A stretch of DNA of 64,000 nucleotides, taken from assembly GCA_016934955.1 (NCBI GenBank), contig JAFGRY010000049.1:228008-292007 (forward strand), read 5' to 3'. A model generated the notes under the pieces. That model searched no databases and had not been told where the DNA came from. It was given only the letters and a program-made list of their open reading frames with translations. Position 1 is the stretch's first letter. Each line of letters starts with the position of its first letter. Position numbers and translations under genes: made by a program. Origin of the DNA: a bacterium (GTDB lineage: Bacteria > Zhuqueibacterota > QNDG01 > JAGLOF01). Of this stretch, positions 25,441-63,910 are shown in pieces.

Positions 25441-27147
25441 ATGACACATCTGACAAAACTGACGGTAAAACAGCTCATCGAGGAGAGCGTCCGGCGCTAC
25501 GGATCCAATCCGGCGCTTGGATTTGTCGGGCAGCAGCCCATATCCTACGCCCGCCTCGGCCAGCAGATCCACTCACAGTCCACGCTGCTTCACCGTCGGG
25601 GCGTCACCCACGGTGACAGGGTGGCGATCATCAGCGAAAACATGCCCAACTGGGGGATCGCCTATTTTTCCATTCTCTATCTCGGCGCCGTAGCCGTCCC
25701 CGTGCTTCCCGATTTCCACGCCTCCGAGATCCATCATATCATTCGGCACGCCGGTGCCAAGGCGCTGTACGTGTCACGAAAGATGATGGATAAAATTGAA
25801 GATCTCTCGGATGCGGACATTTCGACGCTGATCATCATCGATGATTTCACCCTGGTCGCGCCTGAGACACGAATCGGCCGGATCAAGGACCTGATCAAGG
25901 AAGGCGGCCGGGAATACGCCAAGCTGAAGGAGAGCGCCGGGCGCGCGGCCGGGCTCATTCCCGCGGAAGTGAGGGAAACCGACCTGGCCGCGATTATCTA
26001 CACGTCCGGTACAACCGGACACTCCAAGGGCGTCATGCTCACCCACGGCAATATCATTCACAATGTGATCTCTTCCGGCGCGGTCCAGCCCGTGGGTGAC
26101 ACCGACCGCTTCCTATCCATACTGCCCCTTTCCCATACCTATGAGAACACCATAGGACTGCTGCTGCCGCTGATGCAGGGGGCGTGCATCTACTATCTCG
26201 ACCGTCCTCCGGCGGCGAACATTCTCCTGCCGGCCATGGAGAAGGTGAGGCCGACGTTCATGCTCAGTGTCCCCCTTATTCTGGAGAAGCTGTACAAAAA
26301 GAAGATCGCTCCCAGGCTGAACGTTTCCGGTATCGGCGGCCGCATTCTCTCATTGAGACCGATCCGCAAATGGCTCTCGCTCATTATCGGCAGGAAACTG
26401 ATAAAAAGTTTCGGCGGCCGGATCAAATTTTTCGGCATCGGCGGAGCCCCGCTCACGCCCGAGGTCGAGCGTTTTCTCAGAGACGCCGGATTTCCCTATG
26501 CCGTCGGGTACGGCCTCACTGAAACCGCCCCCCTGCTGGCCGGCTGCGCTCCCGGCGTCACCCGCTTTCAGTCCACCGGTCCCGCGGTCAAGGATGTGCA
26601 GCTGATCATCGCCGATCCCGATCCCCGGACCGGCGAGGGAGAAATACTCGCAAAGGGGCCGAACATAATGAAAGGCTACTACAAGGACCCCGACAGCACC
26701 CGGGCCGTGTTTACCGAAGACGGCTGGTTCAGGACCGGAGATCTCGGCACGTTCGACGCCGACGGGTACCTCTATATCAAGGGCAGGCTCAAGAATGTGA
26801 TCATCGGACCCAGCGGAGAGAACATCTATCCCGAAGAGATCGAAGCGCATCTCACCTCGTTCCCGTACGTGCTGGAAGCGATCGTGTTCAGACAGGATGA
26901 GCGGCTTATCGCCAAGGTCTATCTCAATTATGAGGAACTGGACCGGATTTTTGAACGTGAGCACCTCTCCCGTCAGCACATACGGGAAAGAATTGCGGCG
27001 CTCCTGGAAGAGATGCGGACAACCATCAACAGCCGCATTTCCGTGTATTCACGCATCCACCAGATTCTGGAACAGCCGGAACCGTTCGAAAAGACGCCTA
27101 CCCAGAAAATCAAACGCTATCTCTACCTGACGGACCGGTCCGTATGA
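25441..27147 (+). CDS. Long-chain fatty acid-CoA ligase-like AMP-forming enzyme (copy 1)
   Basis: 568 aa ANL-family adenylating enzyme. Motifs: IIYTSGTTGHSKGVMLTHGN (P-loop A3, ~180-200), FFGIGGAPL, VGYGLTETAPLLAG (A5), GWFRTGDLG (A7), and PTQKIKRYLYL with the catalytic Lys near the C-terminus. The sequence is most like the long-chain acyl-CoA/acyl-ACP synthetases; it activates a fatty acid with ATP. AGGAG lies 6 nt before the ATG. A second copy of the same type is encoded at 56.9 kb. Substrate length is not visible. Confidence 0.88.
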   Translation: MTHLTKLTVKQLIEESVRRYGSNPALGFVGQQPISYARLGQQIHSQSTLLHRRGVTHGDRVAIISENMPNWGIAYFSILYLGAVAVPVLPDFHASEIHHIIRHAGAKALYVSRKMMDKIEDLSDADISTLIIIDDFTLVAPETRIGRIKDLIKEGGREYAKLKESAGRAAGLIPAEVRETDLAAIIYTSGTTGHSKGVMLTHGNIIHNVISSGAVQPVGDTDRFLSILPLSHTYENTIGLLLPLMQGACIYYLDRPPAANILLPAMEKVRPTFMLSVPLILEKLYKKKIAPRLNVSGIGGRILSLRPIRKWLSLIIGRKLIKSFGGRIKFFGIGGAPLTPEVERFLRDAGFPYAVGYGLTETAPLLAGCAPGVTRFQSTGPAVKDVQLIIADPDPRTGEGEILAKGPNIMKGYYKDPDSTRAVFTEDGWFRTGDLGTFDADGYLYIKGRLKNVIIGPSGENIYPEEIEAHLTSFPYVLEAIVFRQDERLIAKVYLNYEELDRIFEREHLSRQHIRERIAALLEEMRTTINSRISVYSRIHQILEQPEPFEKTPTQKIKRYLYLTDRSV

Positions 27148-56882: not shown

Positions 56883-56920
56883 GAACAAAAATAGATGTCG
56901 ACATCATCATGGAGGCTGAG

Positions 56921-58603
56921 ATGACAACGGGCATGACCATCCGATCACTTATGGAAGAGAGTATCACCGCGCATCGGGATCTCCCCGCCATATCGTTCTG
57001 TGACACCACTCCCCTCACCTTCGGAAACCTGGAGGAGAACATACACAGACTGGCCGCCGACCTGCTCTCCCGCTCCGTTCAGAAGGGGGACGCCGTTGCC
57101 ATTCTCAGCGATAACTGTCCCAACTGGGTGATCGCCTACCTCGCCGCAGCCTACATCGGCGCAGTGGCCGTGCCGATATTGACCGGCTTTCCCGATTCCG
57201 ACATCCGTCACATTCTGCGCAATGCCGATGTAAAGGCACTGTTCATTTCAGACAAACTGCGCGGCAAGCTCGATGACTTCGAAAGCGATGCGCTCGGCGT
57301 CGTGTACCGTATCGAAGATTTCAGCGCCGAATATCGCAGCGCCAGGATGGCCGATGTCTACAAAAAACTGCGGGACCCGGCGGGCAGAAAGAAAAAGAGC
57401 GCGCCGTCCCCCGCAGAGATCCTTTCGGCCGCGCCCGTACCCGTTCCGGAAGACCTGGCCGCCATTATCTACACCTCGGGTACCACGGGCAGTTCCAAGG
57501 GCGTGATGCTCACCAACCGCAACATCGCCAGCGACGTGGTCAATGCCCTGAAAAAGTTCCCCCTCACCACCGACGACCGTTTTCTCTCGATTCTGCCCCT
57601 CGCCCACACGTTCGAAGCGACGGGCGGCATGCTCTGCCCGCTCGCCGCCGGTGTCAGCATTTACTACATGGAGGGGCTGCCAACCCCCCAGAAGCTGCTT
57701 GCCGCCATGTCCCGGGTCAGGCCGACGGGAGTGCTCACCGTCCCCCTGGTGGTGGACAAAATATACCGGAAGCGGGTGCTGCCAAAAATTCAGAGCAGCC
57801 GGCTTCTCAGTCTTCTCTACAGGCTTCCCGCGGTCAGGAAAACCATCAACGGCAAGGCCGGGGAAAAGATGATCGAGTCCTTCGGCGGGCAGCTGCGCTT
57901 TTTCATGTTCGGAGGCGCTGCCCTCAATCCCGACGTGGAAACCTTTATCAGGGACGCCCGCATCAGCTATTCAACCGGGTACGGCATGACCGAAACCGCG
58001 CCAATTCTCACCATCAATCCCTTCGGCCGGGTAAAAGCGGGATCCTGCGGGCAGGCGATCCCGGAAGTGACCATCTCCATCGACAGTCCCGACCCCGCCA
58101 CCGGCATCGGCGAAATCATCGTCAGGGGGCCGAACGTAATGCAGGGGTACTATAAAAATCCGGAGGCGACAAAGGAGATCATGGACGACGACGGCTGGCT
58201 GCACACCGGAGATCTCGGGTACCTCGACAAAGAAGGATATCTCTTTATAAAGGGACGGTCGAAAAACGTGATCATCGGCCCCTCCGGCGAAAACATCTTT
58301 CCGGAAATCATCGAACAGCTGCTGCTGCAGAACGAGTACATCCAGCAGGCCATCGTCTTTAAAAAAGGGCACGCGCTCACCGCAAAAGTGTACCCTGACT
58401 ACGATGTGATCGATGAGCAGTACGGCCGCCGCGATCTCAACGAAAACGAGGCGTCCGCCCTGATCGCGACCATTCTCGAGCAGGTGCGGGTGCAGACCAA
58501 CGAAAAACTGGCCGTCTTCTCCCAGCTGTCGAAGATGGAGGAATACCCCGAGCCATTCGAAATGACTCCGACCAACAAGGTAAAGCGGTATCTCTACATT
58601 TGA
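56921..58603 (+). CDS. Long-chain fatty acid-CoA ligase-like AMP-forming enzyme (copy 2)
   Basis: 560 aa from ATG 56921 (GGAGG 5 nt upstream). Motifs: IIYTSGTTGSSKGVMLTNRN, MFGGAALNPDVE, TGYGMTETAPILT, DGWLHTGDLGYLD, SGENIFPEIIEQLL and PTNKVKRYLYI at the very C-terminus. Same architecture as the enzyme at 25.4 kb, including the short C-terminus ending in KRYLY, so the two are paralogs. Probably activates fatty acids for the nearby lipid genes; acyl-ACP versus acyl-CoA product not visible. Confidence 0.88.
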   Translation: MTTGMTIRSLMEESITAHRDLPAISFCDTTPLTFGNLEENIHRLAADLLSRSVQKGDAVAILSDNCPNWVIAYLAAAYIGAVAVPILTGFPDSDIRHILRNADVKALFISDKLRGKLDDFESDALGVVYRIEDFSAEYRSARMADVYKKLRDPAGRKKKSAPSPAEILSAAPVPVPEDLAAIIYTSGTTGSSKGVMLTNRNIASDVVNALKKFPLTTDDRFLSILPLAHTFEATGGMLCPLAAGVSIYYMEGLPTPQKLLAAMSRVRPTGVLTVPLVVDKIYRKRVLPKIQSSRLLSLLYRLPAVRKTINGKAGEKMIESFGGQLRFFMFGGAALNPDVETFIRDARISYSTGYGMTETAPILTINPFGRVKAGSCGQAIPEVTISIDSPDPATGIGEIIVRGPNVMQGYYKNPEATKEIMDDDGWLHTGDLGYLDKEGYLFIKGRSKNVIIGPSGENIFPEIIEQLLLQNEYIQQAIVFKKGHALTAKVYPDYDVIDEQYGRRDLNENEASALIATILEQVRVQTNEKLAVFSQLSKMEEYPEPFEMTPTNKVKRYLYI

Positions 58604-59743: not shown

Positions 59744-59771
59744 TTGATTTCCCGGGATTTTTCCCTATCTT
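59744..59771 (+). promoter_or_regulatory. Promoter of the AfsA-like operon
   Basis: TTGATT (59744-59749), 16 nt spacer, TATCTT (59766-59771), directly followed by the inverted repeat. Confidence 0.5.
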
Positions 59772-59790
59772 GACCGGTGACTGCCGGTCA
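59771..59790 (+). promoter_or_regulatory. Operator-like inverted repeat before the AfsA-like gene
   Basis: TGACCGG, 6 nt, CCGGTCA: a perfect 7+7 palindrome on top of the predicted transcription start. Size and position fit a dimeric repressor site (for example TetR type), but no regulator gene is adjacent. Confidence 0.5.
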
Positions 59791-59817
59791 TGACTATCAC
59801 AGAAGAGGGGTGTAATT

Positions 59818-60378
59818 ATGCTTGAAAATCCGCTTGTCACCGCAAAGCTGGATGAATGGACCCGGGACTTCGATCTCAAAAACCAGATAAAGATCGACAA
59901 AAAGTATATCCACAAGGTCAACGACCAGAACAATTTCGTCTCCCGCATCGAACAGATCGCCAGCGGGGATGAAGACGTCTTTCTGAGTCAGGTCTATATC
60001 GACACCAGCCACCCCTACTACTTCGAACACGATTATGACCATATTCCCGGCATGATGATGATCGAGGCCGGCCGTCAGATCGGGACCGCCGTCGCCCACC
60101 TGTTCTATCACGTCTCTTTCGACACCGTGTTCATCCTCAATGAGATGACCATCCGGTTTTTCAAATACGTGGAGGTCGTCAAACCGCTGTTCATCAAATC
60201 GATGGTCCGCAACAAGCTGATGAAGCGGGACAAGCTGATCCAGATGGAGCATGACGGCCACTTCATTCAGGACGGCCGGGAAGTCGGTTACATGAGCGGC
60301 ACCTGGCAGATGTACGACAAACGGATCATCGACCGCTTCCGCAAGTCGGCCCGCAATATTTCCCTGGACATCAGCTGA
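59818..60378 (+). CDS. AfsA-like hotdog domain protein
   Basis: 186 aa. The central block IHKVNDQNNFVSRIE, DVFLSQVYIDTSHPYYFEHDYDHIPGMMMIEAGRQ (shown in parts) and FILNEMTIRFFKYVE match the A-factor biosynthesis hotdog domain: the SHPY and MMMIEAGRQ segments are the most telling. AfsA proteins of Streptomyces join a beta-ketoacyl chain to dihydroxyacetone phosphate; here there is one hotdog domain rather than two, so a related acyl transfer or a dehydratase/thioesterase role is possible. First gene of an operon with an amidohydrolase, a PlsC and an epimerase. Confidence 0.75.
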   Translation: MLENPLVTAKLDEWTRDFDLKNQIKIDKKYIHKVNDQNNFVSRIEQIASGDEDVFLSQVYIDTSHPYYFEHDYDHIPGMMMIEAGRQIGTAVAHLFYHVSFDTVFILNEMTIRFFKYVEVVKPLFIKSMVRNKLMKRDKLIQMEHDGHFIQDGREVGYMSGTWQMYDKRIIDRFRKSARNISLDIS

Positions 60379-60381
60379 TCC

Positions 60382-61305
60382 ATGGCTGTCTGTTCCTACG
60401 TCTACTGCCGCACCCGTTACAGCGACGGACGTGAACGCTGCCCCGTGTGCGGCCTTCCCGTGCACGGTACCATGCCCGGCACGACCGCCGAAGCGCTGGC
60501 GCTCGCCCCGCAGATTCCCGCCGGGATCATCGACATGCACCAGATCATCCCCGCCCGAGACGGCATGCTGGAATTGCAGCTCGCCATGATGGCGGGGCTG
60601 GGCATCGAGACAGCCCTGCTGCAGTCGGTCCCCTCCAAAGTGACCTCGATCAGCGGCAACCGTCCCCTGCGGAACATCAGGGACAGCCATCCCCGGCGGT
60701 TCATTATTTCCCATTTCATGGATCCCCGCTACCCCCTGGCGATCCGGCGGCTGCGGCAGTACCGGGAAGCGGGCGTGCGGGTGATCAAGCTGCTCCCCTG
60801 TCTCGGATACTATCCCGACGACCGCCGCTGGCACCGGTTCTTCAGCACCATGGAATCGCTGTCGATGACAGCCATGATCCACACGGGATTCATCACCGCC
60901 CGGCACAAGCAGGAAGAGCGGAACGCGGGGGTCTTTCTGAACTCGAAATACGGACAGCCCGTCTATTTCGACGTGCCCGCCCGCCGCTACCCCGGCATTC
61001 AGTTCATTCTCTGTCACATGGGCGGCTCGATCTGGACCCGCCAGGCCGCCGAGATGGTCAATCAGCACGAAAATGTGTGGGGGGACATCAGCGGATCGGG
61101 CCTGCAGGCCCTGAAACGGCTGGCCGGGGAAGAGATCGCCGTTGACTGGTCCAGACTCTTCTGGGGAAACGACTCATCACCCCTCGCCTACCCGCTCAAT
61201 CTCCGCATTCTTCACCACCACCTGGAAGCGGCGGGATTGAAGGAACTGCTGCCCGGACTGCTGCGGGACAACGCCGCCGGCTTTCTGCGGAACCACCTCG
61301 CATGA
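60382..61305 (+). CDS. Amidohydrolase family protein with N-terminal zinc ribbon
   Basis: 307 aa. N-terminal CSYVYCRTRYSDGRERCPVCG is an unusual four-Cys ribbon, followed by a TIM-barrel-like amidohydrolase-2 domain: IIDMHQIIPARDG (replacing the usual H-x-H metal pair with D-M-H), VRVIKLLPCLGYYPDD, MIHTGF, PGIQFILCHMGGS and FWGNDSSPLAYPL (terminal Asp). The loss of one His in the first motif leaves metal binding doubtful. It starts 3 bp after the AfsA-like stop, and its end overlaps plsC (ATGA). Substrate unknown. Confidence 0.7.
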   Translation: MAVCSYVYCRTRYSDGRERCPVCGLPVHGTMPGTTAEALALAPQIPAGIIDMHQIIPARDGMLELQLAMMAGLGIETALLQSVPSKVTSISGNRPLRNIRDSHPRRFIISHFMDPRYPLAIRRLRQYREAGVRVIKLLPCLGYYPDDRRWHRFFSTMESLSMTAMIHTGFITARHKQEERNAGVFLNSKYGQPVYFDVPARRYPGIQFILCHMGGSIWTRQAAEMVNQHENVWGDISGSGLQALKRLAGEEIAVDWSRLFWGNDSSPLAYPLNLRILHHHLEAAGLKELLPGLLRDNAAGFLRNHLA

Positions 61306-61919
61306 CGCCGCCGGTCAACCATCCCTTCTTTCTGGGGCTGCGGCTGCTCCTGAAAACCCTTGTCCGCGCCTGGCTCCGTATCTCACGGGGGCTCGCGGTC
61401 CTCGGCCGGGAGCATCTTCCCGCCAGACGCCGCGGCTGCATGCTCATCGCCAATCACGCCGCCTTCATCGATTCCGTGTATATCATCGCGGCGGTGCGGC
61501 CGCGCTTCACCATCTGCGGGGCCAAACCGAAATACTTTGAAAAACCCCTCAGCGGATTTCTCTTTCGAACCGCCAATATCATGAAAGTGACCGGAGAAGA
61601 TCAGTTCCTGGCGGACTGCGTTCGTCTGCTCGCGGCCGGAGAAGCCATACTCATCTACCCGGAAATGGGAAGAAATCCCGCGGGGATGGGGCCCTTCACA
61701 ACCTGGGCGGCCCGGGTCGCCCTGGAGAGCGGCGCCCCGGTAATCCCCCTCTACCTGTACGGGACCACTCAGGGGGATACGGGGAGAAAAACGCTGGCCG
61801 CGGGGCCTCCATTCACTCCCAGCGGGGACAGGGAAGCGGTCACCGCTGAATTCCGGCGGCGCATTCTCGCCTGCCGGGAACTGGTCCGCCCTCCGGAGGT
61901 GAAAGGACGGACTCAATGA
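61302..61919 (+). CDS. 1-acyl-glycerol-3-phosphate acyltransferase-like (PlsC family)
   Basis: 205 aa. Acyltransferase motif I NHAAFID (His52-x4-Asp57) and the later YPEMGRN (motif III E-G/M-type) and APVIPLYLYG (motif IV) fit PlsC. An N-terminal hydrophobic/amphipathic segment anchors it to the membrane. Overlaps both neighbours by ATGA, so acyl transfer to an unusual backbone made by the neighbouring enzymes is plausible as well as plain phosphatidate synthesis. Confidence 0.87.
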   Translation: MTPPVNHPFFLGLRLLLKTLVRAWLRISRGLAVLGREHLPARRRGCMLIANHAAFIDSVYIIAAVRPRFTICGAKPKYFEKPLSGFLFRTANIMKVTGEDQFLADCVRLLAAGEAILIYPEMGRNPAGMGPFTTWAARVALESGAPVIPLYLYGTTQGDTGRKTLAAGPPFTPSGDREAVTAEFRRRILACRELVRPPEVKGRTQ

Positions 61920-62896
61920 ACGTGCTGATCACGGGAGCGACCGGATTCATCGGCAGACACGCGGCAATGACCCTGCTGCCTGAACGGAACATCTCGGTGC
62001 GTCTGCTGCTACTCGAGTCGGAGCTGGGGCATGCCGGCGATTTCCCCGGCGCCGATATCGTGCCCGGCGACATGACCGATGCCGGCGTGCTCGCCCGGGC
62101 CGTCGACGGCTGCGATGCGGTCATTCACCTGGCCGCGAAAAACATAGACCGCGACGGCACGGGATTCACCGCCGTGAACGTGACCGCCACGGAAACGCTC
62201 TGCCGGGCAGCCGTAAGCGCCGGAGTCTCCACCTTCATCTATCTCAGCAGTGTGGGCGTATACGGGCACCACCGTCATACCAACGCCGACGAGACGGCAC
62301 CGGTGCGGCCCGACAGCGATTTCAGCCGTTCCAAGGCAGCCGCCGAGAAGATCGTGCTCGAGCACCACCTGCGCGGGGATTTCACCGCCGTGATCCTGCG
62401 CCACCGTTTCGTCTACGGCCCCGGTGACCTGCATGTCATCCCCCGCATGGTGAAAGCCGCCCGCTCCTATCCGTTCCTGATCAGCGGCGGCAGGGCGCAC
62501 ATCTCCCTGATCCTGGTCACTGAACTGGCAGCGGTCTTCCTCGCTTTTCTGCGCGGTGGCGGGGACCGGGACGAACATCCGGTCTATCATGTCACGGACG
62601 GACACCCCCTCAGGTATCGCGACCTTATCTTTCGCATCTGCGACGAATACGGGTACAAGCGTCCCCGCATCAGCATTCCCTTCCGGCTGCTCTACCTGCC
62701 GGTGAGGCTGAAGGAGCTGCTGCTGGGGATCGATCCCGAGGCGACACCATCGTCCATCTCCTCCATGCGGCTGAAGCTGGTGGCCCTTGACAACTCTTTC
62801 TCGAATGAAAAACTGCTGAAACGGTTTCCCGGGCTCTCGTTCACGCCGTTCGAGGAGGCGTTTGGAGAACTGGTGGAGTATTATCGGGAACAGTAG
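61916..62896 (+). CDS. NAD-dependent epimerase/dehydratase (3-beta-HSD-like), catalytic Tyr replaced
   Basis: 326 aa extended SDR. NAD motif GATGFIG (~7-13), VIHLAAKN, and IYLSSVGVYG (Ser triad region) are normal, but the Y-x-x-x-K catalytic pair reads F-S-R-S-K in DSDFSRSKAAAEK, so the Tyr is Phe. RHRFVYGPGD and a C-terminal basic helix fit 3-beta-hydroxysteroid dehydrogenase-like reductases. It ends the ATGA-overlapped operon. In Caulobacter the ceramide reductase CerR is, as I recall, of this atypical SDR kind; that link is a guess. Confidence 0.82.
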   Translation: MNVLITGATGFIGRHAAMTLLPERNISVRLLLLESELGHAGDFPGADIVPGDMTDAGVLARAVDGCDAVIHLAAKNIDRDGTGFTAVNVTATETLCRAAVSAGVSTFIYLSSVGVYGHHRHTNADETAPVRPDSDFSRSKAAAEKIVLEHHLRGDFTAVILRHRFVYGPGDLHVIPRMVKAARSYPFLISGGRAHISLILVTELAAVFLAFLRGGGDRDEHPVYHVTDGHPLRYRDLIFRICDEYGYKRPRISIPFRLLYLPVRLKELLLGIDPEATPSSISSMRLKLVALDNSFSNEKLLKRFPGLSFTPFEEAFGELVEYYREQ

Positions 62897-62900
62897 AGAG

Positions 62901-62942
62901 GTCGGGTATCGATCGGTATCGCTATCGGTATCGCCATCGGTC
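62901..62942 (+). repeat. Short tandem repeat of GGTATCG-type units
   Basis: GGTATCGATC, GGTATCGCTATC, GGTATCGCCATCGG: three imperfect 10-12 bp units directly after the epimerase stop codon. Confidence 0.6.
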
Positions 62943-62965: not shown

Positions 62966-63000
62966 TCCAACGAAAAACACAAAAAACACGAAAAAAGATT
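62966..63000 (+). repeat. ACGAAAAACAC-type repeat, left copy
   Basis: TCCAACGAAAAACACAAAAA and more of the same A-rich pattern. The right copy at 63875 has the same start (TCCAACGAAA-ACAC) and orientation; together they flank the short-chain dehydrogenase gene as direct repeats. Confidence 0.55.
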
Positions 63001-63016: not shown

Positions 63017-63853
63017 ATGAAACAATCACTCACCACCAAAACCGCCGTCGTCACCGGCGCCTCTTCGGGGATCGGGGCGGCCCTGGCCCGGGAACTGGCA
63101 CGGGCCGGCTGCAATATTGTAATCTTCGGACGGAGAAAGGAGCGGCTGGAAGCGCTCAGAAAAGAGCTGGAGGACACCTGCGGGGTGCGGGTGCTGCCGT
63201 TCAGTGTCGACATCAGGAATGAAAGGAAAATGGCGTCGTCGATCGAATCCGCGGCAAACACTCTGGGAACCATCGACCTGGTGTTCGCCAATGCCGGTTT
63301 CACCATCCCCGGCGCCTGCGAGCAGCTGCATCCCGACGATTACCGCACTATTTTCGATACCAATTTCTGCGGCATGCTCAACACGCTCTACCCCGCCTTT
63401 CCCCATCTGAAACAGAGCGGCGGCGTGCTGGTCATCGTGGGAAGCATTCTCGGCGAGTTCGGCATTATGGAACGGTCGGCCTATGTGGCGACGAAATTCG
63501 CCCTGCGGGGGTTCTACGAATCGGTGCGCTACGAACTGAAAGAGGCGGGGATCCGCTGCCTGCTGGCCGAACCCGGGTTCGTGAGGACGGAACTGCGGTA
63601 CATGGACAAGAAGGGGAACCGTCTGGAGGCACTGACCGACACGGCGAAAAAGAAAACATCCCACGGCATCGCCGTGTCTCCGGAAGCCGTAGCCGCGGCC
63701 ATAGTCAGAGCCATCCCATCCCGCGGCTACCGGAAACGGATCATCACCGGCCACGCCACCATCTTCGCCTTTCTCAACTGGCTCATGCCCGGCCCGCTCT
63801 CGGCGCTGGTGTATGCCAAGCGGGAGTTTTTCAGAAGGAAAGTAGTGAAATGA
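63017..63853 (+). CDS. Short-chain dehydrogenase/reductase
   Basis: 278 aa classical SDR. T-G-x-x-x-G-x-G cofactor motif TGASSGIG (~13-20), NAG in FANAG (~94), catalytic Ser in VIVGSILG, Tyr/Lys in SAYVATKFA (~156), and a PGFVRTEL motif. An Arg pair in FGRRKERLE suggests NADPH preference. A hydrophobic C-terminal stretch (FAFLNWLMPGPLSALVY) resembles membrane-associated 3-ketodihydrosphingosine reductases, an attractive fit with the SPT at 51.5 kb, though many SDRs share this. Flanked by the repeats. Confidence 0.88.
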   Translation: MKQSLTTKTAVVTGASSGIGAALARELARAGCNIVIFGRRKERLEALRKELEDTCGVRVLPFSVDIRNERKMASSIESAANTLGTIDLVFANAGFTIPGACEQLHPDDYRTIFDTNFCGMLNTLYPAFPHLKQSGGVLVIVGSILGEFGIMERSAYVATKFALRGFYESVRYELKEAGIRCLLAEPGFVRTELRYMDKKGNRLEALTDTAKKKTSHGIAVSPEAVAAAIVRAIPSRGYRKRIITGHATIFAFLNWLMPGPLSALVYAKREFFRRKVVK

Positions 63854-63874: not shown

Positions 63875-63910
63875 TCCAACGAAAGACACGGAAAGCACGA
63901 AAAGAAGATA
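63875..63910 (+). repeat. ACGAAAGACAC-type repeat, right copy
   Basis: TCCAACGAAAGACACGGAAA followed by GCACGAAAAG, about 900 bp from and in the same direction as the left copy. Such A-rich repeats are common between genes in many environmental genomes. Confidence 0.55.

Follow-up and report, generated by a model that had tools for sequence, protein, structure and literature searches.

An AfsA-type operon outside the actinobacteria

Signaling by butyrolactones (GBL) is regarded as mainly actinobacterial. One survey assigns about 93% of the proteins with an AfsA domain to gammaproteobacteria and actinobacteria (PMC7426152). What, then, does an AfsA-type gene make when it stands in an operon of an uncultured phylum outside the actinobacteria? 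The operon in question lies in a 64-kb window, the whole stretch of DNA analyzed here, which is the terminal part of contig C20 (G000:C20:228008-292007) in a 4.4-Mb assembly of 52 contigs that is about 90% complete. A preliminary description of the window had reported four coupled genes, and Pfam searches confirmed their frames and families, with all four matches above the gathering scores. They encode, on the forward strand, a one-domain AfsA-type hotdog protein of 186 aa (59818-60378, PF03756, E = 7.4e-26), a zinc-ribbon Amidohydro_2 protein of 307 aa (60382-61305, PF04909, E = 4e-18), a PlsC-type acyltransferase of 205 aa (61302-61919, PF01553, E = 1.8e-12), and an extended SDR of 326 aa (61916-62896, PF01370 [Epimerase], E = 6.9e-34). 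The coupling was also as described, with a 3-bp gap between the AfsA stop (60378) and the amidohydrolase start (60382) and 4-bp ATGA overlaps at 61302-61305 and 61916-61919. The operon is nevertheless longer than the four genes first proposed: a classical SDR of 278 aa (63017-63853, forward strand, PF00106 [adh_short], E = 1.1e-46) is its fifth gene, since it is kept in place in a second operon, found in genome G003. The spacing between the two SDR genes is 120 bp in the window and near zero in G003. Contig C20 stops shortly 3' of the fifth gene, at position 292007, where the window ends.

The intergenic DNA carries a repeat, CAACGAAA-ACAC--AAA-CACGAAAA, with one copy on each side of the classical SDR gene (62968-62994 and 63877-63903), and a 12-bp tandem repeat, ATCGGTATCGCC, at 62912-62941.

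The same five genes recur in a second genome

An AfsA gene was found in 2 of 82 genomes of the phylum, whose assemblies are incomplete: the window's own and G003, which belongs to the same order and a different family. Close matches to the amidohydrolase came from the same two phylum genomes only. Contig G003:C174 holds all five genes in unchanged order (3115-7028 of L007), with a 3-bp gap, a 1-bp overlap, a 2-bp gap, and then short spacing, so that the linkage claimed for the four genes holds in a relative. Because this gene order recurs, the five-gene set is more than a chance assembly. In operon order, the products of the two genomes are 64% (AfsA), 64% (amidohydrolase), 55% (PlsC), 60% (extended SDR), and 57% (classical SDR) identical, compared with 47% for the best pair of a control protein, the Uup-type ABC ATPase. 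The sequence comparison therefore suggests either strong constraint or horizontal spread of the operon, a choice that a single control gene leaves unsettled.

The flanks of the two operons are unlike. An M29 peptidase gene and an acyl-CoA ligase gene lie upstream in the window, and a peptidyl-prolyl-isomerase-like gene, identified by reading the sequence, lies upstream in G003. We rejected the ligase and the peptidase as operon members, as G003 has neither an M29 match nor a ligase ortholog of comparable identity and the flanks differ. The window also contains two long-chain acyl-CoA ligase-type paralogues (25453-27129 and 56909-58603) that are 45% identical to each other. In G003, the DNA that separates the operon from the upstream gene (about 2680-2950 of L007) looks by eye like a sialate O-acetylesterase-type gene fragment with stops, which suggests a rearranged insertion site. 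Searches for operon relatives found none in a phage collection and in viral contigs, and a contig scan recovered only one distant locus.

The hotdog protein aligns with AfsA

As the preliminary description had proposed, the hotdog protein aligns with AfsA and not with FabZ. It scored 91.2 bits against PF03756 (gathering score, 24), and no FabA/FabZ family match was found in Pfam or NCBIfam up to an E value of 1. We aligned the operon protein with a Mycetohabitans protein, homologues from Spirochaetota, and the two halves of Streptomyces ScbA. The signature that it keeps is H-x-x-F-[FE]-x-H...H-[VI]-P-G....E-x-x-R-Q together with an N-terminal [IV]HK motif (VHK). The conserved signature residues of the operon protein are H65, F69-E70-H71, H75, P77, E83, and R86-Q87; E83, R86, and Q87 are invariant in the alignment and line up with both ScbA halves. 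The E-x-x-R-Q residues matter for ScbA activity.

The operon protein has one hotdog and one PF03756 stretch, compared with two signature motifs in the Streptomyces proteins of 323 to 328 aa, and it scored 78.3 bits against the ScbA/BarX equivalog model NF041195 of NCBIfam, below the cutoff of 200. For these two reasons we assign it from its sequence to the AfsA family and not to the ScbA/BarX equivalogs. No recognizable sequence relative was found among solved structures. A poor structural model (pLDDT 44) matched hotdog folds only, mostly thioesterases. By analogy with its homologues, the protein is predicted to condense a 3-ketoacyl thioester with dihydroxyacetone phosphate (DHAP).

The extended SDR resembles GblE

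In GBL clusters, AfsA, ScbA, and JadW1 are named GblA and JadW2 is named GblE, while ScbB, JadW3, and BarS1 are classical SDRs. In Streptomyces plasmid records, scbA-type genes have an NAD-dependent epimerase gene as their neighbor or no more than two genes away. We built a profile from four such AfsA-linked Streptomyces epimerases and ran it against both genomes. The operon extended SDR ranked at the top in each, with 134.9 bits in the window's genome (runner-up, 76.4) and 140.9 bits in G003 (runner-up, 66.4). Its identity to the Streptomyces epimerases is 26 to 31%, which alone would not show likeness to GblE. The YxxxK site adds to the comparison: the catalytic Tyr position is Phe136 (FSRSK) in the window protein, and the site reads F...K in both operon proteins, T/V/A...R in 5 of 5 Streptomyces proteins, and Y...K in each of the 15 remaining extended SDRs that we recovered from both genomes. 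On these sequence features we class the operon extended SDR as GblE/JadW2-like. The loss of Tyr common to GblE-type SDRs offers a residue-level signature by which genuine GblE proteins may be picked out among ordinary epimerases.

As in GBL clusters, the AfsA gene of the operon is linked to a GblE/JadW2-type epimerase gene. Its classical SDR retains the catalytic Y156-x3-K160 and may be, by analogy only, the counterpart of BarS1, ScbB, and JadW3. At the level of sequence, the AfsA protein and the two SDRs together resemble the JadW1-JadW2-JadW3 set. The Streptomyces epimerase is GblE (JadW2), which is reported to be essential for GBL synthesis in Streptomyces venezuelae through a step described as unknown (PMC5735094), and a compact five-gene set with an AfsA-GblE pair would be a small expressible unit with which to probe that step.

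The amidohydrolase and the acyltransferase

The amidohydrolase shares its superfamily and most active-site positions with ACMSD-like amidohydrolases and decarboxylases (Amidohydro_2; LigW, LigJ-type hydratases, and BB4693) but differs from them by an added N-terminal zinc ribbon (CX4C...CPVCG, kept in the G003 homologue) and by HxI in place of HxH. At this first metal motif, both operon proteins read H53-Q-I55, and 11 of 11 distant homologues aligned read HxH. One ligand is thus lost, and the other metal-ligand positions, H167, H212, and D264, are kept. The nearest solved relatives are decarboxylases, hydratases, and the uncharacterized BB4693; a model made from the one sequence had a pLDDT of 39. 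A search of Spirochaetota with the amidohydrolase gave no close homologue.

The PlsC protein has an intact NHX4D motif, which reads NHAAF[IV]D in both operons, and matched TIGR00530 (E = 1.7e-9) with 37.5 bits, below the cutoff of 102.95. We found no instance of an amidohydrolase or a PlsC in described GBL clusters. MmfH of the methylenomycin-furan set, considered as a precedent for the amidohydrolase, was ruled out, as it is a flavin-type oxidoreductase.

A palindrome upstream of the operon

A perfect 7-bp inverted repeat, TGACCGG-N6-CCGGTCA, lies upstream of the operon at 59771-59790 and is a weak candidate operator. The preliminary description had placed the operon behind a palindromic operator. 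The repeat does exist, but shuffling the 95 bp of upstream DNA 500 times gave an equally good repeat in 15 cases, and the DNA upstream of the G003 operon lacks it. A promoter scan of the 59771-59790 region found nothing. No TetR gene (TetR_N match) is present on contig C20, which stops shortly after the operon, or on G003:C174; seven TetR-type proteins are encoded elsewhere in the window's genome. Given a weak, unconserved palindrome and no TetR gene on either contig, a dedicated GBL receptor system cannot be claimed. Among the genes examined next to the operon, none was identified as encoding a phosphatase.

Proposed function and alternative explanations

On balance, and with moderate confidence, we read the locus as an operon for GBL-type biosynthesis that belongs to an uncultured phylum outside the actinobacteria. 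Because a GBL enzyme core is joined to an amidohydrolase and a lipid acyltransferase, its product is probably a fatty-acylated relative of butyrolactone signals. The AfsA-like protein, with its one hotdog against the two of Streptomyces AfsA, would probably act as a homodimer and would join a 3-ketoacyl thioester to DHAP to give an acyl-C3 intermediate of the butenolide-phosphate type. The GblE-like and classical SDRs would then modify and reduce this intermediate, the amidohydrolase could add a hydrolytic or decarboxylating step, and a free hydroxyl could receive a second fatty acyl chain from PlsC, so that the product would be membrane-lipophilic. AfsA-family domains, including a Gram-negative one from Burkholderia gladioli, join 3-ketothioesters to DHAP in vitro (PMC7756379), and we infer the condensation step from the characterized homologues AfsA, MmfL, and the B. 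gladioli domain. Tailoring by the SDRs is suggested by analogy with GBL pathways. Which later step follows which, what the amidohydrolase and PlsC contribute, and whether the product acts as a signal, as an antimicrobial, or as a lipid are matters of inference only. The single hotdog, the subcutoff NF041195 score, the lack of a TetR gene and of an identified phosphatase, the presence of an amidohydrolase and a PlsC that we met in no described GBL cluster, and the count of only two operons speak against a GBL reading. The earlier suggestion of an acyl-C3 lipid or signal stands as the best reading, except that its operator is unsupported by conservation and no receptor gene is near. A bolder version, which we consider improbable, is a new class of membrane-anchored diacyl lipids or lipid signals based on AfsA chemistry, in which an acyl-C3 butyrolactone or butenolide core would carry a PlsC-added acyl chain and the metal-depleted amidohydrolase would catalyze a step new to butyrolactone pathways.

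The operon might instead serve an acyl-DHAP lipid pathway leading to an unusual membrane lipid of the phosphatidic acid type. The hotdog protein would acylate DHAP, with any ring closure only transient, the resulting acyl-DHAP would be reduced to acyl-glycerol-3-phosphate by the classical SDR, PlsC would acylate position 2, and the extended SDR and amidohydrolase would edit the beta-keto chain. The first product of AfsA is itself an acyl-DHAP ester, and the intact HX4D of PlsC, the intact YxxxK of the classical SDR, and a contig without a receptor gene all fit such a route. We nevertheless regard it as unlikely, for the GblE-like partner with its common loss of Tyr points to GBL chemistry, 3-ketoacyl-DHAP esters are expected to cyclize, and occurrence in 2 of 82 genomes is unlike a core lipid pathway. 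A complete autoinducer system, with a diffusible GBL-like signal and an ArpA/ScbR-type TetR repressor at the palindrome, would account for the AfsA and GblE-like genes and the perfect inverted repeat, and its repressor could be among the seven TetR-type proteins encoded elsewhere. It seems to us quite unlikely: ScbR genes adjoin scbA in Streptomyces loci whereas this contig has no TetR gene, the palindrome is only moderately unusual and missing from G003, and a diacylated product would be expected to diffuse poorly. Finally, the hotdog protein could be a FabZ-like dehydratase or a thioesterase in a fatty acid or polyketide tailoring operon with no tie to butyrolactones, as its fold is common to FabZ and thioesterases, its low-confidence model matches mostly thioesterases, and its glutamate position is probably shared with FabZ. 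The strong AfsA Pfam match with none to FabA/FabZ, the E-x-x-R-Q and VHK signatures, which follow AfsA, and the GblE-like nature of the linked SDR make this very unlikely, and we rejected the FabZ assignment on the Pfam match and the signature alignment.

Comparison with known systems

The GBL-type reading can be set against several AfsA-containing systems. Some AfsA-type genes have other surroundings. AfsA-type hotdog proteins, mostly of about 420 aa, are encoded in about 15 of 393 genomes of Spirochaetota, the phylum to which the Spirochaetes MAG L002 belongs, and at least one of these proteins, in L051, has a C-terminal PilZ domain (PF03756, 2e-16; PilZ, 7e-5). In several of these loci (L051:482-3217, L053:9426-12223, L054:8098-10666, L049:8624-10618, and L045:9309-11551), a classical SDR gene directly follows the AfsA-type gene, with a HAD-like protein encoded in between in L051, L053, and L054. 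Such loci would bring AfsA, a possible phosphatase, and a reductase together with a second-messenger-type domain. On Aliiroseovarius crassostreae plasmids (L039:7944-8846), a gene for a 300-aa AfsA-related protein adjoins an annotated trpA and an NAD(P)/FAD-dependent oxidoreductase gene, with UbiD/UbiX-type genes near.

Mycetohabitans rhizoxinica WP_338861454.1 is likewise a 186-aa, single-domain AfsA-related hotdog protein (32 to 37% identity over 86 to 87% of the length), but no amidohydrolase, PlsC, or SDR is annotated within 15 kb on each side of its gene. Ruegeria pomeroyi SPOA0341-0344 is a putative GBL cluster with a non-actinobacterial AfsA-domain protein; in the accessible text of its source, it has regulators and a transporter, absent from our operon, and an amidohydrolase, PlsC, and SDR are not reported (PMC7426152). 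The gladiostatin/gladiofungin synthases of B. gladioli contain a Gram-negative AfsA-type domain, a phosphorylated butenolide synthase that uses a 3-ketothioester and DHAP in vitro (PMC7756379); that domain ends a polyketide synthase, whereas the operon AfsA protein is free-standing with no polyketide synthase beside it. The closest likeness in gene content is to the GBL clusters of Streptomyces and Rhodococcus, in which an AfsA-family synthase is linked to an extended SDR without the Tyr, and some of which have a classical SDR as well (PMC5735094). The operon departs from them in its phylum, in having one hotdog rather than a tandem pair, in its added amidohydrolase and PlsC, and in lacking a neighboring ArpA/ScbR receptor gene. 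The preliminary description knew of no described pathway with this set of genes; from what we found, only the amidohydrolase and PlsC are without precedent, and the AfsA, GblE/JadW2, and classical SDR genes are a known GBL set (PMC5735094). The GBL core of the operon was already known, and its two added parts and its phylum are new.
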